A stretch of DNA of 64,000 nt, taken from positions 1,722,524 through 1,786,523 of the forward strand of contig NZ_CP146991.1 of NCBI RefSeq assembly GCF_001941975.2, written 5' to 3'. The DNA comes from Sporomusa sphaeroides DSM 2875. Lineage in GTDB: Bacteria > Bacillota > Negativicutes > Sporomusales > Sporomusaceae. This document shows, piece by piece, positions 13,043 through 20,390 of this stretch (positions are counted from its first letter, which is position 1; every line of letters starts with the position of its first letter). A program made the position numbers and the translations under genes. The notes under the pieces are model-generated. The model made no database searches, had not been told where the DNA came from, and worked only from the letters and a program-made list of their open reading frames with translations.

Positions 13043-14938
13043 GTGCGCCCGGCATGGGCGCAGTCTAACGGGTAGCAAGTCCCTAGCGCGGGTTAATAGT
13101 GCCAAGCGCATAGCTTAAGGCAAGGGTGTCCATCGCGAGGTGGAATCTGAAGGAAGCCAGCGGCAAATCTCCGGTCTGACGAACAGAAATCACATAAAAG
13201 GCAGGAAAAAAACCGGGTGAGGTTGCAACTCAAACCGAAGCCCCAAACTATTCGAGGTCAATCCTGTAGATGTGGCAGATAGATGGAGAGAAAGACTGCG
13301 TTCTTACCCGGGGAGGTCTCACGGACATGTGGAGATAATTTTTGAAACATGGTTGAAACAAGATTAATCGTGAGAAGTCAGCCGAGGCCATAGTACTGGA
13401 AGTTTTTTTTTCAGGAAGGGCCGAACAATAATTGAGTTCTTGAACAGAAGGAGGTGAAGTCATGTTAAGAGAGCAGAAAACCAGTAAAATGGGCTACCCC
13501 TGTGAGGATATGTTAGAAACAAAAAGTAGCAGGGGAGCGCGGAGCATGGCATCACTAGAGCCTGTAATAAAGAACCGCGTAAATCTGTTAGAAGAAATCC
13601 TAAACAAAGACAATCTTAATGCAGCCTACCTTCAGGTGAAGAGTAAGAAAGGTGCTGCAGGAGTAGATGGCATGGAAGTAGGTGCGATGCTGGGCTGGTT
13701 AAAGGAAAACAAGGAAGAATTCCTTGCAAAGCTGAGAACTGGAAAATACAAACCCCAGCCGGTACGACGGGTAGAAATCCCGAAGCCGGATGGAGGTAAG
13801 AGAAAGCTGGGAATACCAACGGTATTAGACAGGTTGCTACAGCAGGCGATAGCACAGATATTACAGCCAATCTTTGAAAAAACATTTTCCGAAAACAGTT
13901 ATGGCTTTCGCCCAGGAAGGAACGCGCACCAAGCCATAAGCAAGACAAAAGGCTACTACGAGGAAGGATACACGAAAGCCGTCGACCTTGATCTGGCGCA
14001 GTATTTTGACACGGTAAATCATGACATTCTAATTAATATGCTCCGGGAAGAAGTAAAGGATGAGAGAGTAATAAAGCTCATCCGGAAGTATTTGAAAAGC
14101 GGAGTAATGGAAGGCGGGTTAGTAAGTCGAACAGAAGCGGGAACACCCCAGGGAGGAAACCTATCGCCGCTGTTATCTAATATTTATCTAACGAAGTTCG
14201 ATAAACTGCTGGAAAGCAGAGGACATAAATTCGTGAGATATGCCGATGACTGTAATATTTACGTAAAAACGCCAAGAGCAGCAAAACGAATCATGGAAAG
14301 TTGTATTCGGTATTTAGAAGGGACACTGAAACTGACTGTGAACCGAAAGAAAAGCCGGATAGGCAGTCCGCTGCGAGAGAAGTTCCTAGGGTTTTCGTTA
14401 CATAAAGTAGTTGGTAAAGTAGGAATCCGCCCCCATGCGAAGGTAATCCGGAGATTCAAGCAGAAGGTGAAGAAAATAACCGGGCGAAATCGCGGTCGGT
14501 CAATAAAAGACATTCTGAGGGAATTGAAAGAGTACACAAATGGATGGCTAAATTACTACGCCATAGGAGATATGCGGGCAAAGATGCAGGAGTTGAACCA
14601 GTGGATACGGCGCAGGCTGAGGATGTTCTTGTGGAAACAATGGAAGAAAATCTCCACAAAGCATGACAATCTGAAAAGATTGGGGCTAGATAGTGGCAAA
14701 GCGTGGGAATACGCTAATACAAGATTGGGATATTGGCGAATTGCTGGGAGTGTAATTCTGAACAGGACACTAACAGATAAATACCTCGAATCCCTTGGCT
14801 ACATGAACATAGCAAAGAGATACGAGGTATTGCATTTACGTTAAGTTATTGAACCGCCGTATACCGAACGGTACGTACGGTGGTGTGAGAGGTCGGTCAT
14901 TCAGTTAATGGATGACCTCCTACTCGATCGATTAGTGG
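13043..14938 (+). mobile_element. Group II intron, probably class IIC, full length
   Basis: The 5' end is GTGCGCCC at 13043. About 420 bases of ribozyme RNA precede the maturase gene. Domain V is visible at about 14853-14888 (ACCGCCGTA paired with TACGGTGGT), and domain VI ends in CCTACTCGAT near 14938. Insertion directly behind a terminator hairpin and a maturase without endonuclease domain are the known habits of class IIC. Ends are within a few bases. The element appears intact. Confidence 0.9.
13462..14844 (+). CDS. ltrA: Group II intron reverse transcriptase/maturase
   Basis: 460-residue intron-encoded protein promoting splicing and reverse transcription. RT blocks are present: GIPTVLDRLLQQAIAQ (about 117-132), NSYGFRPGR, DLAQYFDTVNHD, GTPQGGNLSPLLSN and the catalytic YADD (260-263). 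A maturase X domain lies around residues 340-430. No C-terminal HNH endonuclease is present, matching class C. An AGGAGGTG site precedes the ATG. No frameshift or stop was seen, so the protein is probably functional. Confidence 0.93.
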   Translation: MLREQKTSKMGYPCEDMLETKSSRGARSMASLEPVIKNRVNLLEEILNKDNLNAAYLQVKSKKGAAGVDGMEVGAMLGWLKENKEEFLAKLRTGKYKPQPVRRVEIPKPDGGKRKLGIPTVLDRLLQQAIAQILQPIFEKTFSENSYGFRPGRNAHQAISKTKGYYEEGYTKAVDLDLAQYFDTVNHDILINMLREEVKDERVIKLIRKYLKSGVMEGGLVSRTEAGTPQGGNLSPLLSNIYLTKFDKLLESRGHKFVRYADDCNIYVKTPRAAKRIMESCIRYLEGTLKLTVNRKKSRIGSPLREKFLGFSLHKVVGKVGIRPHAKVIRRFKQKVKKITGRNRGRSIKDILRELKEYTNGWLNYYAIGDMRAKMQELNQWIRRRLRMFLWKQWKKISTKHDNLKRLGLDSGKAWEYANTRLGYWRIAGSVILNRTLTDKYLESLGYMNIAKRYEVLHLR

Positions 14939-15199: not shown

Positions 15200-15709
15200 A
15201 TGGCTCTTACGTTTATTACGGTATTAGCAGCTTCGGTAATTAAAGGCATCACCCTGCTCGTCTCTTATATAGCAAACAATACTTTCCCTTTGCCGCTGTC
15301 GGAGAAAGATGAACGTATTTATTTGCAGCGGTTAAAGAACGGGGAGGAAGAAGCCCGAAACGTATTAATTGAACGCAATCTGAGATTAGTGGCACACATT
15401 GTCAAGAAGTTTGATAACACTGGCGAAGATGTTGATGATCTCATTTCCATCGGCACGATAGGTCTTATTAAAGCCATTAACACATTTGACCCTGCCAAGA
15501 AGATCAGGTTGGCTACCTATGCAGCCAGATGCATTGAGAATGAAATACTCATGCATTTAAGAAGTACCCGCCGCATACGCAGTGAAGTTAGTTTGTATGA
15601 CCCGATCGGGGTTGATAAGGAAGGAAATGAAATAACACTGAATGGTTATCTGTTTAAGCAATCACAGCTGCGCATTACCTGGGTAAAATGGGATGCAGCA
15701 CCAGAATGA
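15200..15709 (+). CDS. sigK: Sigma-K gene, 5' part, interrupted by the skin element
   Basis: N-terminal part of pro-sigma-K, the late mother-cell sigma factor. It opens with a hydrophobic pro-sequence ([19 protein letters not shown]), then [40 protein letters not shown] and [16 protein letters not shown], the sigma-70 region 2 core. The sigma-K frame is genuine to codon 147 (nt 15640). After that it reads into the inserted element and stops at 15709, giving a 169-residue truncated product. Joining to nt 20118 onward restores a 237-residue sigma-K. The GGGGGTGAATGACTGA ribosome region precedes the ATG. Confidence 0.95.
15626..15641 (+). other. Left attachment core of the sigK skin element (attL)
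   Basis: 16-bp AATGAAATAACACTGA, identical to 20103-20118. It codes for sigma-K residues N-E-I-T-L, and the final A is the first base of the next codon. On the element side it is followed by an arm TTATCTGTTT (15646-15655) that mirrors AAACAGATAA at 20081-20090. Confidence 0.88.
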
Positions 15710-17252
15710 AATTGTCGCCATTCTGGTGCTTTTCTTTGCGGTAAGTGGCATATGCTAATACAGTTTTTAACAATTGATTTTTAACCGCCGGGTCCTTTGT
15801 CTTTTTATAAACGACAAGGACCTTTTCAAATTTCGGAATAATATCTTTATTGGCTTGTTCTCTTGTTATTTCGTGCTTGATAGCAGTCTCGGTGTCGGCT
15901 ATGGCCTTTTCCGTTTCCAGAATCCGTTCGGAAAGTTTCTGTGACCTGTCCCGGTAGGTAGCTTCATCATAGATATTTCTTTCCAGAAAATCGTGGAGAC
16001 GATCTTTTTGCAGCTCTAACTCTCTGTGCTCCTTGTTAAGATGCTGCAATAGCTTTTTCTTAATACTTATTGCATTATCTTTTTGTTCGACAGGCTTGTT
16101 GCGCACCCATTGAGCCCGGTATTTCTCCAGCCAATATTCAAGGCCATTCAGCACGCTGGTTTCCACATACTCAAAGCGGCTGCTCTTATTTGGGCATTGC
16201 TTGTTATAGCAGATGATATGGGGGTACTGCTGGTGGGAGTATGGCCTGTATACCATGGCCCCACCGCATATTGCGCATTTAACAAGTCCGGCCAGTGGGT
16301 TGGTAATACCATTGACTTGCCGATAGGGGACATGATATTTACCTTTTAGGATTGCCTGTGCTTTGCTGAAAATCTCTTTGGCCACAAGCGGCTTGTGTTT
16401 GCCTTCAACGTCAATCCACTCCGAACGGGGGCGTGTTCTAACGTCCTCTTTTTTGCCCGGAGTTTTTGACTTTTTTTCCTCTTTCTTTTTCCATTGCAGC
16501 CGGCCGATATAGACTTCGTTTTTCAGGATAAAGAGAACGGTAGAGGCCTCCCAGGGTTTGCCGCTATAGGTAGGCTTGCCTAGCCGGTTAAGTTCAGCAG
16601 CAATCTTGTTGCTGCCCATTCTGACATTAGGGTCATCATGAGTATATAATTCAAAAATGAGCTTTACTACGGGAGCCTGGTCTGGGTGTGGTATTAATAT
16701 TCTCTCACGGTTGGTTTTCTCAATTTGATAGCCATATGGCGGTCTGGCGCCGATATAATTGCCATCCTGCACCGAACGCACCCTGCCGCCTTGCAGACGC
16801 CGGGTGATAATTTTCAATTCCTTGCGTGCCATAAAGGCTTCGAATTCGGTGTATTCTTCATCAAATTCATCATTAAGGTCATAAATCTTGCGCGGTGTTA
16901 CGATGAGCGTATTGGCGTTCTTGAAGGTTTTAAGAATGAATCCCTGATCTTCCATGTCGCCACGCCCCAGGCGGTCAACTTCCATACAGAATACAGAGCG
17001 CCATTTTCCTGCGGCAACTTCCTTAAGAAGCTGCATCATCTCCGGACGGTTAACGACACTTTCTCCAGATACTATTTCTTCGAAAACATGGGCGATAGTT
17101 ACGTTGTAGTCTTTAGCCAGTCTGAATAAGTCCCGTTTATGTTTAGCCAGTGTCTCACCCTCGCCCCGGGCTTCGGCTTCGCTGTCTTCGCGCGACTTGC
17201 GGAGGTAAAAGGCGGCTGGCTCTAAGTCCTGACAAGTGTGTGGTGGCCTCAT
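15675..17252 (-). CDS. spoIVCA: Serine recombinase, SpoIVCA type, for sigK skin excision
   Basis: 525-residue large serine recombinase. The N-terminal catalytic domain has YLRKSRED with the nucleophile Ser20, ESVVNRPEM and [11 protein letters not shown] recombinase domain follows with GARPPYGYQ, then a zinc ribbon (CAICGG with a second pair in CYNKQCP), a coiled-coil-like charged stretch (HREL to ETEKAI) and a C-terminal tail. Minus-strand ribosome site AGAGGTGAT before the ATG. The stop lies 34 bp from the left attachment core. Position in the sigK element assigns the role. Expression timing is not visible. Confidence 0.92.
15697..15730. terminator. Perfect 12-bp hairpin at the element's left end
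   Basis: Arms AGCACCAGAATG and CATTCTGGTGCT with a 10-nt loop, followed on the plus strand by TTTTCTTTG. It begins inside the last codons of the truncated sigK frame and lies within the recombinase 3' coding end. It could end transcription of unrearranged sigK. Confidence 0.6.
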
Positions 17253-17294
17253 AGTATCACCTCTGAGGGTAATATACAGGTTTCCGTCGAATGG

Positions 17295-17486
17295 TTAGGC
17301 ATCTTTATAAAAAACAAGCATAATAGTATCTTTATCAAGAACCAGAGTTTCTCCGGAAATGTGTTTATCAAAAATCCAGCCATTGACGGCTTGTTCATTC
17401 AGAATTTCCTCAAGCCGTCCGCCATCAAGCCGTGAGGTTCCCAGAAATCCTTTTTTCTTTACTTCTATCACTTTATATTGGCGCAT
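17295..17486 (-). CDS. DUF4177 small protein
   Basis: 63 residues opening MRQYKVIEVKKKGFLGTS, followed by a helix (LEEILNEQAVNGW) and a closing strand (TIMLVFYKDA). This is the usual pattern of DUF4177, a small alpha-beta protein of unknown function. The GAGGAGGTATCTAAT ribosome region lies just upstream on the minus strand. It is in line with the recombinase gene, with a gap of about 40 bp, and may be co-transcribed with it. Confidence 0.75.
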   Translation of the reverse strand: MRQYKVIEVKKKGFLGTSRLDGGRLEEILNEQAVNGWIFDKHISGETLVLDKDTIMLVFYKDA

Positions 17487-17552
17487 ATTAGATACCTCCT
17501 CGAATCTTCATTTTGCAACCTGTGCTCATATCAACCCGTTTGGTAACTGGTT

Positions 17553-17903
17553 TTAATGATTAATGACTGCTGGGGAACCACTCTGCGTGGTTACCTCGTC
17601 GGCAAAGCAGGTATTCTCTGTTTCCCAGCGTTTTAATTGGCAGTAAGCCCAAGGCACGTACAGACCAAACGTTATAAAGGTTAATACCATGATCAACAGC
17701 CAGTGGCCCAGAAATTGGATCCCAGTACCGGTAAACAGTAGCTGCCGCCCATTCACGTAAGTATTATCGGCAATCCATCTCTGTTGAGCGGAATAAGCCC
17801 AAGGGAAGTATAGTCCAAGGGTAATGACTGATACAATTGAAGTCCAGATTACCAGCCAGAGATAACCAAACCCAGTACCACGAAATTCAAAGGTTTTTGA
17901 CAT
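17553..17903 (-). CDS. DUF898 (YjgN-like) membrane protein
   Basis: 116 residues with two hydrophobic spans (about 12-34 and 64-84), each followed by the repeated motif GLYFPWAY / GLYVPWAY plus an R/K-W. FRGTG and LLFTGTG repeats precede the spans. This duplicated layout fits DUF898/YjgN membrane proteins, here in a short form. Function unknown. A GGAGGAGTCAT ribosome region precedes the start on the minus strand. Likely in one unit with the DUF4177 and recombinase genes. Confidence 0.75.
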   Translation of the reverse strand: MSKTFEFRGTGFGYLWLVIWTSIVSVITLGLYFPWAYSAQQRWIADNTYVNGRQLLFTGTGIQFLGHWLLIMVLTFITFGLYVPWAYCQLKRWETENTCFADEVTTQSGSPAVINH

Positions 17904-18254
17904 AATGACTCCTCCAATATGATTAATTCTACATAATCAACAAAAACACAGCCTGTGGGATTAGTACTGTGTTCTTTGTCACATAAAGAATAAATGATTC
18001 AGCTTTCTATTACTTCTGGTATTACATCTAGCCACAGCATAGTATCCCGCTAAGTTGATTTTACTTTATATGTTGCTTGCAAACAATATATGAGGTGAAA
18101 AATATTGTCTGCAAGCAACATTGGACTATTGATGACTGCCAAACGGGACCGGGGAAGAACTTTATGAACCTTCCTGCGACCGGAGAGGTGAATTTTGGCA
18201 GTTAGCAGGGCCGTCCATACCGGTCACCGGCATATATATAAATGAGGTGATCGC
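17904..18254. other. Divergent regulatory gap inside the skin element
   Basis: About 350 bp between leftward and rightward genes, so it probably holds promoters for both. It contains the long hairpin at 18071-18120 and a nested inverted repeat at about 18131-18205 (GACTGCCAAA with TTTTGGCAGTTA, and inner GACCGG / GACCGG-type pairs). Very short frames with ribosome sites (from 18105 and 18192) are present, but I do not call them genes. Confidence 0.5.
18071..18120. repeat. 19-bp inverted repeat (operator or terminator-like)
   Basis: Arms TGTTGCTTGCAAACAATAT and ATATTGTCTGCAAGCAACA, 18 of 19 paired, with a 12-nt loop containing GAGGTGAAAA, a ribosome-site-like sequence. Confidence 0.7.
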
Positions 18255-18485
18255 GTGGGAAAGAAATATGCCGCTACTTATAAATTAGGTAAAACCACGG
18301 TTCACATAGTAGCTCCGCCGCCCATGAAGGAGGAGGAAAAAGAGATAATCCTTCGCGAATTCCACTTCGCCGCCTGGTCCGCCTGGAATTCGCTGCCTGT
18401 TGATGAAAGGCTGAAACTGAATTTGGGTGTTGATTTAACTGCAATCCTTCAACACAGGCTTACCACACTGTTCAAAGCCGAGTAA
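18255..18485 (+). CDS. Small skin-element protein, unknown function
   Basis: 76 residues from a GTG at 18255 with GAGGTGA at 18244-18250. The N-terminus KYAATYKLGKTTVHIVAPPP looks like a short beta sheet, followed by an acidic helix (KEEEKEIILREFHFAAWSAW) and a second helical part ending LFKAE. No signal or membrane span. I recall similar short proteins beside recombinases in Clostridia but cannot name a family. First of the rightward genes in the element. Confidence 0.65.
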   Translation: MGKKYAATYKLGKTTVHIVAPPPMKEEEKEIILREFHFAAWSAWNSLPVDERLKLNLGVDLTAILQHRLTTLFKAE

Positions 18486-18492
18486 TCGGCTG

Positions 18493-18660
18493 ATGGCAAT
18501 CCGGACAAGTGGGAATGATACCTGGGCGAAGAACTCCAGGCAGCAAACTGGAGGTAAATCAGTTGTCGGCATACCAAACATTAGCGATATTGAATTTATG
18601 CAAATAGATGCCTTCGTTCCTGGGCAGACTGTAATTATCCAGGGGGTGAAAGGGCAATAG
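18493..18660 (+). CDS. Possible 55-residue ORF, uncertain
   Basis: Frame from an ATG at 18493 to TAG at 18660, two bases before the Spo0E-like start. The start has no clear ribosome site. The peptide is rich in Gly, Gln and Asn at first and ends in an ordered-looking part (IEFMQIDAFVPGQTVIIQG). Tight spacing on both sides favours a gene; the missing ribosome site argues against it. Confidence 0.35.
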   Translation: MAIRTSGNDTWAKNSRQQTGGKSVVGIPNISDIEFMQIDAFVPGQTVIIQGVKGQ

Positions 18661-18662
18661 TC

Positions 18663-18830
18663 ATGAAAGAATTAATTGAACTGCAAGCAATGATTGAGAA
18701 AATGCGTGATAAGTTGCATGAAATCGCGAAAGACAAATCACTAACAGATATGGAAGTTGTTCGGGCAAGCCAGATGCTGGACGTGCTGCTTAATGAATAT
18801 CAACAAATGCTAAAGAATAAAATTAAATAA
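18663..18830 (+). CDS. Spo0E-like sporulation regulatory protein
   Basis: 55 residues with the Spo0E family pattern: a first helix (MKELIELQAMIEKMRDKLHE), then LTDMEVVRASQMLDVLLNEY, which carries the family's S-Q-x-L-D-x-x-x-N-x-Y core. Spo0E-type proteins dephosphorylate Spo0A-P and hold back sporulation. AGGGGGTG lies about 15 bp before the ATG. It is the fourth-last gene in the element. A copy riding inside a sporulation-excised element is notable; the target is inferred from family. Confidence 0.8.
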   Translation: MKELIELQAMIEKMRDKLHEIAKDKSLTDMEVVRASQMLDVLLNEYQQMLKNKIK

Positions 18831-18832
18831 TT

Positions 18833-18853
18833 AAAGCCTTCGGGCTCTTTTTT
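18833..18853 (+). terminator. Terminator after the Spo0E-like gene
   Basis: Short stem AAGCC / GGCTC around TTCG, followed by TTTTTT, starting right after the stop codon. Confidence 0.7.
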
Positions 18854-18931
18854 CATGCCTAAAACCAAGGGTATAAATATGTCCGCAATTTTTTACAGTA
18901 ATAAATTCATGCAATTTTCATTTAATCATGA

Positions 18932-18937
18932 TATAAT
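18932..18937 (+). promoter_or_regulatory. Extended -10 promoter within the skin element
   Basis: TATAAT preceded by TGA (TGATATAAT), 35 bp before the next gene. No good -35 is visible. Confidence 0.5.
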
Positions 18938-18971
18938 TTACATAAAGTCATCTTAAGGGGGGGGGCTGTCT

Positions 18972-19208
18972 ATGAGAAGAGAAACATTTATCCGTATATT
19001 AACTGCTATAAAACTTGTATCGAATAATATTACTGTTGTCGAGAATTTCAATAATAAGGCGCTTGTTATTGTTCGAGTTCCTAAAATAGCAGGGGATTCT
19101 CCGAAACAGCTCCGATCATTACGCAAGATACTTTCCCATTGCTCGTATTTTAGTGTTCAGCCTGAAGCCGGTGAACTGGCGGTAACTATGGAATTTAATT
19201 GGGAATAG
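18972..19208 (+). CDS. Small skin-element protein, unknown function
   Basis: 78 residues behind an AAGGGGGGGGG ribosome site. It looks like a compact alpha-beta domain: helix RRETFIRILTAIKLV, strands NITVVENF and ALVIVRVP, a basic helix KQLRSLRKILSHC, and strand ELAVTMEFNWE. No known family recognised. It has its own extended -10 promoter and no partner downstream for about 100 bp. Confidence 0.62.
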   Translation: MRRETFIRILTAIKLVSNNITVVENFNNKALVIVRVPKIAGDSPKQLRSLRKILSHCSYFSVQPEAGELAVTMEFNWE

Positions 19209-19312
19209 CAAAAAGTGAGCAATTAAACCGTTCCTACGGACTTGCTTGGCAGCAGGAATTAAATCCTTTTTGCCGAAAGATGTACATGTAAATGGTAAAA
19301 GGGGAGGTTATT

Positions 19313-19507
19313 ATGGAGTCTCAATATTTTTGGACAAGCCAAGATGATTTGGAGCAGGTAGTAATTGGCAATGGCGAGATTCTGTTGATTAATAAAACCG
19401 GAGAATCAACAAGAATCGGAACTACGCTTGCTGAGGCGAGGCAAAAATTAATGGAATTAGATAAAGCTGAAGATTTTCCTGATTTTATGAATGATTATAA
19501 CTGGTAA
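19313..19507 (+). CDS. Small acidic skin-element protein, unknown function
   Basis: 64 residues from an ATG at 19313, chosen because GGGGAGGT sits at 19301-19308; an in-frame start at 19292 lies upstream of that site. Two short strands with FWTSQDD and ILLINKTGE are followed by a helix (LAEARQKLMELDKAED) and an acidic aromatic tail ending DYNW. Function not recognised. A clean terminator follows immediately, so it is probably a monocistronic message. Confidence 0.62.
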   Translation: MESQYFWTSQDDLEQVVIGNGEILLINKTGESTRIGTTLAEARQKLMELDKAEDFPDFMNDYNW

Positions 19508-19508
19508 G

Positions 19509-19530
19509 CCGTCCGCAAGGACGGTTTTTT
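19509..19530 (+). terminator. Terminator after the 64-residue ORF
   Basis: CCGTCC (19509-19514), loop GCAA, GGACGG (19519-19524) and TTTTTT. Confidence 0.85.
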
Positions 19531-19797
19531 AAATCTAACAGAAGGTATACGTTTTGTGCGCCTCCCAAAGGACACGGCGCGGGCGGCCGTCAGACGACGC
19601 TGCGCCGCTTGCATACCGACCGGCCGTCTACGCTTCGGTAGTGTTGTCGGTTGTAAGGACCGGGTCAGCGGTTTTTAACTCTTTTTTTGCAGTAGGCAGT
19701 GGGTGTGTGATATGTCTGCAGAAATGGGAAAATATTTACTCTTTTTTATCCATCTTAGCAGGATTTTGGCAATAGATGTATAAAAATAATTAAAAAA
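19531..19797. other. Gene-free stretch with a GC-rich patch
   Basis: About 265 bp without a believable gene. Bases 19560-19640 are markedly GC-rich, with repeated CGGCCGTC segments. Their start (TAACAGAAGG... CCAAAGGACACGGCGCG) loosely resembles the repeat at 55956-56044. The end is AT-rich and contains GCAGGATTTTGGC (19758-19770) and TATAAA (19779-19784), possibly the promoter of the riboswitch transcript. Confidence 0.45.
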
Positions 19798-19799
19798 AG

Positions 19800-19908
19800 A
19801 ATAATGGGCAAACCTTCTTAAAGGAAGGGACGCAAAGCCGTGGGTCTAAGGATGAGTTACATCTATGATTGCCAGGTTGCATTAAACGCAATCTGGTATT
19901 TTTATTTT
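19800..19908 (+). promoter_or_regulatory. c-di-GMP-I (GEMM) riboswitch with terminator platform
   Basis: Hallmarks in order: GGGCAAACC (19806-19814), a GNRA-like loop region, GACGCAAAGCC (19829-19839), CTAAGG (19846-19851), TATGATTGCCAGGTTGC (to 19880). CCAGGTTGC then pairs with GCAATCTGG (19888-19896), followed by TATTTTTATTTT, making an intrinsic terminator. The switch would control the 40-residue ORF that follows. It lies inside the skin element. Confidence 0.9.
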
Positions 19909-19925
19909 GTACGGGAGGGTTAGTG

Positions 19926-20048
19926 ATGGGCGGTACGGACGATATTGTATTAAGTGAAGAAGAATTAAAGGAAATAGAGGAACTATTGCTTCAGCTGCCA
20001 GATATTATCGAAGAGCTAGAACAGCATGTTCCCAAGCCGAAAGCGTAA
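19926..20048 (+). CDS. 40-residue acidic protein under c-di-GMP riboswitch, unknown
   Basis: ATG at 19926 follows GGGAGGG (19913-19919). The peptide is 40 residues: MGGTDDIVLS, then a strongly acidic leucine-rich helix (EEELKEIEELLLQLPDIIEELEQ) and the basic tail HVPKPKA. The amphipathic helix suggests a protein-protein contact rather than an enzyme. It ends 54 bp before the right attachment core, so it is lost from the chromosome on excision. No family recognised; reality is supported by the riboswitch and ribosome site. Confidence 0.65.
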   Translation: MGGTDDIVLSEEELKEIEELLLQLPDIIEELEQHVPKPKA

Positions 20049-20102
20049 TTAGATACTCAGCCGGACGAACTTGAACCATGAAACAGATAAATACCAGATG
20101 TT

Positions 20103-20118
20103 AATGAAATAACACTGA
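20103..20118 (+). other. Right attachment core of the sigK skin element (attR)
   Basis: AATGAAATAACACTGA, identical to 15626-15641. On the element side AAACAGATAA (20081-20090) lies 12 bp away. In the excised circle it faces TTATCTGTTT symmetrically about the central GA of the core. Confidence 0.88.
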
Positions 20119-20390
20119 TTGATGTGCTTGGCACAGCTCCGGATGTTGTGGGCGAAGCAGTCGAAAGTCTATGTGAGCAAGAACGGTTGACGCGGGAGAT
20201 TCGCCGACTGACAGCAAGAGAAAAGTGGGTACTTGAAATGCGGTTCGGCATACCTGATGGCAGTCGGAAGACACAGCGGGATATTGCTAAAATTTTAGGG
20301 ATATCCCGCAGTTATGTCAGTAGAATAGAAAAACATGCGATTAACAAATTGGGTAAGACTTTGTCGGTGGATGGAAACCCACCCAAATAA
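20118..20390 (+). CDS. sigK: Sigma-K gene, 3' part
   Basis: C-terminal half of sigma-K. Read in phase from the recombined ATT codon at 20118: IDVLGTAPDVVGEAV, then sigma region 4 with LTAREKWVLEMRFGI, KTQRDIAKILGISRSYVSRI and EKHAINKLGKTL. The helix-turn-helix QRDIAKILGISRSYVSRIEK is almost the Bacillus sigma-K one. There is no ribosome site of its own, so it should be translated only after excision joins it to codons 1-147. A palindromic repeat begins right at the stop. Confidence 0.95.
   Translation: MDVLGTAPDVVGEAVESLCEQERLTREIRRLTAREKWVLEMRFGIPDGSRKTQRDIAKILGISRSYVSRIEKHAINKLGKTLSVDGNPPK

Follow-up and report, generated by a model that had tools for sequence, protein, structure and literature searches.

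How sigma-K can be made from a gene that is cut in two is the question raised by a 64,000-nt stretch of contig NZ_CP146991.1 of Sporomusa sphaeroides DSM 2875 (the window; positions below refer to it), in which an insert of 4477 bp divides sigK at 15626/20103. We propose, with a probability of roughly 85%, that this insert is a reduced, prophage-derived sigK-intervening element, which would be excised by a large serine recombinase (LSR) and its recombination directionality factor (RDF) to rebuild sigma-K. Elements of this kind are already known; what is new is a candidate RDF family, a series of inserts ranging from prophage to minimal element, a doubly split sigK and the apparent healing of interrupted copies.

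An earlier note on this DNA, made from the letters alone, had described the two halves of the gene, and its description was borne out. Domain searches identified sigma-70 region 2 in the 5′ piece (E 1.7e-19) and region 4 in the 3′ piece (E 8.4e-14), the 16-bp sequence AATGAAATAACACTGA occurs exactly at 15626–15641 and 20103–20118 (copies 4477 bp apart), and a recombinase gene lies just inside the insert. Without joining, reading of the 5′ piece continues to 15709 (169 aa). In-frame joining of the flanks yields a stop-free sigma-K of 237 residues, in which codon 147 (CTG) is followed by the ATT starting at 20118. This join rebuilds the peptide EGNEITLID in the window and, likewise, in nine further elements (scored with G019 and one Laceyella locus left out), and this restoration exceeds chance. 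By analogy with B. subtilis, we take the conserved N-terminus of the window sigma-K to be a pro-sequence. A search of the strain's genome (5.0 Mb, two contigs) did not reveal another sigK, the best other matches to sigma-K being a sigE/sigG-like pair (C1:1824273 and C1:1825071). A second intact sigK, a possibility raised by the earlier note, was therefore rejected.

Across the relatives described below, the 5′ and 3′ junctions have little in common beyond AATGA, and the whole 16-bp repeat was thus rejected as the recombinase core. AATGA corresponds, by count, to sigK codons 143–144, the core starting at nt 427. The element-side arms are conserved and palindromic (CAGATAA...AATGA...TTATCTG), as seen in a relative of the same genus, G006, when the reverse complement of its right arm (CAGATAAACAGTAAGTGTTAAC) is set against its left arm (CAGATAACTATAAAGTGTT). 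The window repeat is thus best read as a 5-bp AATGA core plus a resemblance of the right arm of the element to the host gene; it would owe its 16-bp length to the right arm happening to continue like that gene. A split sigK with an in-frame join, a terminal LSR, no other sigK found in the genome and an inverted-repeat attP around an AATGA-type core were observed together. Judged by these features, the insert is a sigK-intervening (skin-type) element, real and probably functional.

In sporulating mother cells of B. subtilis, B. cereus and C. difficile, the two parts of sigK are brought together by an LSR, assisted by an RDF in those cases in which one is known (PMC5025042, PMC6957869, PMC10745906). 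The B. subtilis skin (spoIVCA, skr) resembles the window element in splitting sigK, in having the LSR beside the 5′ half, in its AATGA core and in the retained pro-sequence; it also has a small RDF, of 64 aa (PMC6957869, PMC10745906, PMC5025042). It differs in its size (48 kb, compared to 4.5 kb here) and in that skr overlaps spoIVCA, whereas the window candidate, likened to Skr by description only, has a gene of its own, on the opposite strand from the LSR and at a distance of about 1 kb. The insertions of B. cereus AH820, J7 and J62 have the same AATGA core and lie at sigK nt 423, close to the nt 427 counted here. The AH820 recombinase is adjacent to the 5′ half, as in the window, and excision of this insertion has been demonstrated by PCR and sequencing; unlike the window element, the three insertions are 38–39 kb long, and they are likened to it by site and core, not by LSR (PMC10745906). 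C. difficile skinCd (CD1231, CD1234) likewise splits sigK and carries an LSR and a small RDF of 72 aa (PMC5025042), but it is 14.6 kb long, occupies another site (PMC10745906) and has the opposite orientation to that of B. subtilis; CD1234, too, is likened to the window candidate by description only. Elements of Pelosinus fermentans JBW45, P. propionicus DSM 13327 and other Negativicutes share with that of the window the codon, the small size, an LSR (53–77% identical) and, in most, the RDF candidate, whereas their cargo differs. The literature search found nothing on an interrupted sigK in Negativicutes or on a Sporomusa skin element, surveys in subscription journals being beyond its reach.

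The distribution of such elements was examined in 60 genomes, including that of the strain itself, searched with the joined sigma-K and with the LSR. An LSR at least 53% identical to that of the window is present in 17 of them, all with a split or truncated sigK (truncated in G024; in G057 a middle piece of the gene adjoins the LSR, and in G010 the LSR lies on another contig). The search of relatives suggested by the earlier note revealed an uninterrupted sigK-like frame in 21 of the 60 genomes. None of these 21 has a window-type LSR, distant ones (30–34%) being found in G008, G009, G012 and G015. A Fisher test of the association of the LSR with an interrupted sigK gave p 3.5e-10 (with G002, G007 and G043 left out and no correction for ancestry). 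In G025, only the 3′ half and no LSR were detected.

The size of the window element had been called unusual, a view that we reject. Same-site elements measure, from core to core, 2779 (G028), 3019 (G055), 3407 (G038), 3714 (G004), 4477 (window), 5090 (G016), 5288 (P. propionicus), 6156 (G049), 8533 (P. fermentans UBA6563) and 19369 bp (G031), and match coordinates place five more at about 20 (G019), 38 (G057), 42 (G003), 51 (G023) and 58 kb (G006). The largest of these, in the same genus as the window, is inserted at the same codon and encodes an LSR and an RDF candidate that are 76% and 72% identical to those of the window. Seven of the ten large proteins tested from the G006 insert match PHROGs, among them a portal protein, the terminase large subunit, a tail spike and a DNA polymerase processivity factor; tail genes are also present in the G003 and G023 inserts. 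Since the G006 prophage shares the codon, the LSR and the RDF candidate, the small inserts look like reduced prophages that have kept the LSR, the RDF and the ends. Domain and PHROG scans recognised no portal, terminase, capsid or tail genes in the window insert, which does not amount to a complete prophage.

A second survey covered named loci, i.e. the best 79 of 134 relatives from an LSR alignment search; nine of these loci come from assemblies already included in the first survey, and five of the nine were sources of the RDF profile used below. Among the matches listed, 26 of the 79 loci contain a sigK piece. These belong to Negativicutes (including Pelosinus and Propionispora), to a Caloramator bin and to Bacilli (including Halalkalibacter, Salibacterium, Laceyella, Shimazuella and Tumebacillus). 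The sigK match of L172 (29%) was set aside because it belongs to another sigma factor. Three loci, L119, L127 and L128, differ in that the LSR adjoins the 3′ instead of the 5′ half. In Propionispora sigma-K is 87% identical but the LSR only 57%, which suggests a transfer of some elements from host to host. On a Clostridia metagenome contig (L102, 2878–6893), 5′ and 3′ sigK pieces lie in opposite orientation around a recombinase, an arrangement that reflects either an inversion or a misassembly.

An all-against-all comparison of open reading frames (ORFs) of at least 35 aa across the elements (not covering G010, G018, G021, G025 and G057) revealed a single small ORF family once the LSR and the frames that overlap it had been set aside. 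It has 12 members, one in each element whose interior was fetched through that region, is present in elements down to 2779 bp and has the consensus MExKYAATYK..VHVVAPPPM...AAWxAWNSL. Its window member, the 76-aa protein encoded at 18255–18485, is a likely RDF, as judged from co-occurrence and position. Of 300 genomes sampled from the class, 25 are matched by the RDF profile, 26 by the LSR profile and 22 by both (Fisher p 2.6e-26, not corrected for ancestry). The LSR alone was found in G010, G018, G021 and G081 (at a contig end in G018 and G021), and the RDF alone in G005 (with an internal stop), G026 and G046. Among the matches listed for the named loci, the RDF profile is found in 20 of the 26 with a sigK piece, five of which had helped to build it, and in one of the 53 without (L121); matches in L113, L119 and L124 are weak (E 0.002–0.018).

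The profile also matches the phages TVCOM_ph1 (E 3.4e-5) and THSA-485A (E 4.9e-5), the two phages with the LSRs closest to that of the window. The Thermoanaerobacterium phage THSA-485A, with an LSR 52.7% identical to that of the window, differs in being a phage record with replication genes, and it is likened by LSR and RDF, not by integration site. In TVCOM_ph1, the stretch downstream of the LSR has, by eye, no resemblance to the sigK attP. Distances between LSRs correlate with those between RDF candidates (Spearman 0.56, n=20) and between sigma-K 5′ halves (0.60, n=24). In pairs of Pelosinus elements, the nonsynonymous rate (dN) is below the synonymous rate (dS) for both the LSR (dN 0.027–0.096, dS 0.16–1.5) and the RDF candidate (dN 0.029–0.152, dS 0.28–0.93, over only 168–180 nt); dS is saturated within the genus of the window. 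The motif YLRKSRED is invariant in 16 aligned LSRs, and the window LSR had no NCBIfam match above the cut-offs. Searches of Pfam, NCBIfam and PHROGs with the RDF candidates gave chance-level matches, each to one of the 12 members (best E 0.013). An AlphaFold model of the candidate has a pLDDT (predicted local distance difference test) of 82 and a pTM (predicted template modelling score) of 0.43.

Taken together, these observations lead to the following proposal. In the mother cell of a sporulating culture, the 76-aa protein would act as the RDF and allow the LSR to recombine attL with attR, so that a 4477-bp circle is released. The joined gene would give pro-sigma-K, to be cleaved by a protease of the SpoIVFB type. 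Because the spore genome would keep the insert, it would pass to the progeny, and it would persist because a host with sigK interrupted could not lose the LSR or RDF without loss of sporulation. The genome encodes a BofA-domain protein, an M23–M50 peptidase pair of the spoIVFA–spoIVFB type and spoIIID, and proteolytic activation therefore probably follows as in B. subtilis. The earlier suggestion that both excision and proteolysis could gate sigma-K is thus in keeping with the conserved N-terminus of the pro-sequence type and with these candidate processing genes; the claim that the combination is unusual was mistaken, as B. subtilis uses both (PMC5025042).

Several observations weigh against this proposal. 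As the 21 uninterrupted genes indicate, members of the group can do without the element. Excision is deduced from the DNA, and the RDF assignment is based on co-occurrence and position: the model gave no PDB fold match at E 0.001 or better, and the profile gave no meaningful match to PDB chains, a set including a YokA–YotN fusion (YotN being SprB). An RDF-profile match is missing in six of the 26 sigK-linked loci listed, namely L097, L098 and L105 (all three with the LSR near a contig end), L106 (a copy farther off) and both from Tumebacillus. Co-inheritance forms part of the LSR/RDF signal, since RDF distances also track those of the host sigma-K (Spearman 0.47, n=20). A scan with a sigma-E consensus found no promoter before the RDF gene in any of the 12 elements, so that expression of the candidate in the mother cell is a presumption. 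The processing genes were assigned by domain and order only: the BofA model misses B. subtilis in the control set and matches two archaea, the M50 model matches all 14 controls, and NCBIfam names neither member of the M23–M50 pair.

These points leave room for other explanations. The RDF could be another ORF of the insert or a host protein, the 76-aa protein having a different role; the insert does contain several other small ORFs, and RDFs of different LSRs share no significant similarity (PMC5025042), so that homology cannot decide. This is nevertheless unlikely, given that the 76-aa family is the one small family across elements of all sizes down to the shortest and accompanies the LSR in 22 of the 300 genomes. 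It might also be argued that the insert is an inducible prophage remnant or satellite, excised under stress in any cell, its link to sporulation being a by-product of the insertion site. The insert does share its LSR lineage with temperate phages, the ~58-kb prophage of a same-genus relative occupies the same site, and the scan for sigma-E promoters recognised none ahead of the RDF gene. However, the scans of the window insert recognised no genes for phage structural proteins, and the recurrence of inserts of 2.8–8.5 kb, together with the failure to find the LSR in the 21 genomes with an uninterrupted sigK, points to selection through sigK, which makes such a by-product quite improbable. Very improbable, finally, is a decayed element that leaves sigK permanently broken and sporulation incomplete or independent of sigma-K. 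Decay does occur in relatives (sigK or att deletions in G003, G024 and G046) and would be compatible with a case built on DNA, but the sigK pieces, the LSR, the RDF candidate and the att arms of the window are all intact, and spoIIID, the BofA-domain protein and the M23–M50 pair are present. Excision by the LSR and the candidate RDF remains the reading that we prefer.

The features of the window element, and the loci in relatives discussed further below, are summarized in Table 1. About nine ORFs within the insert are plausible (a selection from the ORF list), compared to the ten or so small genes of the earlier note, whose figure of 4477 bp was correct. The note had overlooked the candidate RDF, the Spo0E-like gene, the riboswitch for cyclic di-GMP (c-di-GMP) and the 5-bp core.

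Table 1. Positions of predicted features of the window element and of related loci.
Feature	Position	Strand	Remarks
sigK 5′ piece	15200..15641	+	N-terminus of pro-sequence type, sigma-70 region 2, to end of 16-bp repeat
attL	15626..15655	+	AATGA core 15626-15630 and right attP arm of the element, ending TTATCTGTTT
LSR, 525 aa	15675..17252	-	Resolvase, Recombinase, zinc ribbon
DUF4177 protein, 63 aa	17295..17486	-	cargo
DUF898-like protein, 116 aa	17553..17903	-	cargo
promoter-like block	18207..18234	+	AGGGCCGTCC-N14-CATA, ahead of RDF candidate
candidate RDF, 76 aa	18255..18485	+	small ORF family found across elements compared
ORF, 55 aa	18493..18660	+	no Pfam or PHROG match
Spo0E-like protein, 55 aa	18663..18830	+	PF09388, E 1.1e-15
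ORF, 78 aa	18972..19208	+	nothing over Pfam cut-off, no PHROG match
ORF, 71 aa (64 from 19313)	19292..19507	+	no Pfam or PHROG match (64-aa form scanned)
c-di-GMP-I riboswitch aptamer	19797..19884	+	RF01051, 77 bits
ORF, 40 aa (59 aa if start 19869)	19926..20048	+	downstream of riboswitch
attR	20084..20107	+	left attP arm CAGATAA...GTT and AATGA core 20103-20107
sigK 3′ piece	20103..20390	+	sigma-70 region 4 to stop; repeat 20103-20118
contiguous sigK with orphan 3′ copies or insert-gene matches	L076, L077, L078, L080, L190, L203		
sigK cut at codons 114 and 143	L083 627-734, L084, L085, L093 (G057); L110 3571-3678		

The promoter-like block ahead of the RDF candidate is, in sequence terms, not a sigma-E consensus. 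In the 12 elements compared, AGGGCNGTCC is exact in six, a GTCC form occurs in ten and CATA in all 12. AGGGCNGTCC occurs once in the window, which is within chance, as 36 of 100 shuffles contained at least one copy. The pattern GGGCNGTCC-N12-15-CATA was found twice in the genome, one of the matches being this block, and a reversed control gave one match per strand; with genome matches no more frequent than in the control, the block was rejected as a regulon marker.

Spo0E proteins delay entry into sporulation, and by analogy the Spo0E-like gene of the insert, which received no name in the NCBIfam search, could do so as well; similar ORFs are present in the G019 and G049 inserts. The riboswitch is one of three of the c-di-GMP-I type in the genome, and its 3′ arm overlaps a terminator-like hairpin (19870–19898). 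The riboswitch region looks recently acquired, because it is 87.6% identical over 169 nt to another in the same genome. No c-di-GMP riboswitch was present in 22 scanned loci of other elements, many of them partial.

Uninterrupted sigK genes in some relatives carry traces of a former insert. Orphan 3′ copies lie downstream of a sigK contiguous across the codon-143 site in G001, G007, G009 and G046, with a fragment in G045, and by eye an attR-like sequence precedes the orphan in G007 and G046. Downstream of the uninterrupted gene, G005 has an interrupted copy of the RDF gene as well as sequences matching the 71-aa, DUF898 and DUF4177 ORFs. Our guess is that recombination with DNA carrying the excised gene brought the 3′ half, as a copy, to the 5′ half. 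No relics were seen in the stretches read of G008, G011, G013, G015, G017, G020 and G027, with sigK, yqeG and aroE in order, or in G012, G014, G022, G030, G040, G044 and G052, where the gene order is incomplete (G032 and G050 were left out of this survey). Other copies have lost sequence: the 3′ half in G003 (L068, L069) is 36 nt short and its attL arm shortened, the 5′ half in G024 (L088) stops early next to the LSR, and in G046 part of region 4 is, by eye, missing from the contiguous sigK frame. The deletions beside the LSR in G003 and G024 suggest decayed sporulation genes.

A second insertion site was also identified. In G002, G007 and G043 sigK is interrupted solely at about codon 114, with an AATG core. 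In the metagenome bin G057, one contig holds the 5′ piece, which stops at the codon-114 site. A second contig holds a middle piece of 88 bp, bordered on one side by a codon-114 insert (its right end) and on the other by a codon-143 insert (its left end), with the 3′ half ~38 kb beyond; the three pieces, when joined, read as sigma-K to the stop. The codon-114 insert ends in its own LSR, which is 92% identical to that of G007 and ~22% to the adjacent codon-143 LSR. In an uncultured Pelosinus (L110), the same middle piece lies between both kinds of end, flanked on one side by a codon-114 LSR (81% to that of G007) and on the other by a codon-143 LSR, the outer sigK pieces being off the contig. A further three-piece case is possible in Shimazuella soli (L113). 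The genes before the codon-114 recombinase of G057 (L093, 351–6897) resemble, by eye, those of a HerA-type ATPase, an HSP90-type ATPase and a radical-SAM protein, and not phage structural genes.

We tentatively suggest, at somewhat less than even odds, a broader history. A lineage of LSR plus RDF, shed by temperate phages and reduced to 2.8 kb at the smallest, would have made sigK a DNA-spliced gene in many Negativicutes and some Bacilli; a second, unrelated LSR would have recut some copies (two recombinases, three pieces), and the uninterrupted copies of the genus would at least in part have been re-healed. In the window strain, the cargo (the Spo0E-like protein and the c-di-GMP-I riboswitch) could moreover tie the decision to sporulate, or expression of the insert, to c-di-GMP. 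One genus contains a prophage-sized insert, a small insert, an insert at another site and uninterrupted genes with or without relics, and gain, shrinkage and loss can therefore be compared in close relatives. Such comparisons bear on why sigK is so frequently interrupted by removable DNA, and a three-piece sigK would test how much programmed DNA splicing a sporulation pathway tolerates. An RDF family recognisable by sequence would allow such elements to be found automatically, and the candidate family would add an LSR/RDF/att set for genome engineering.

Outside the element, a group II intron (13129–14844, with a reverse transcriptase ORF at 13462–14844) ends ~350 bp upstream of sigK.

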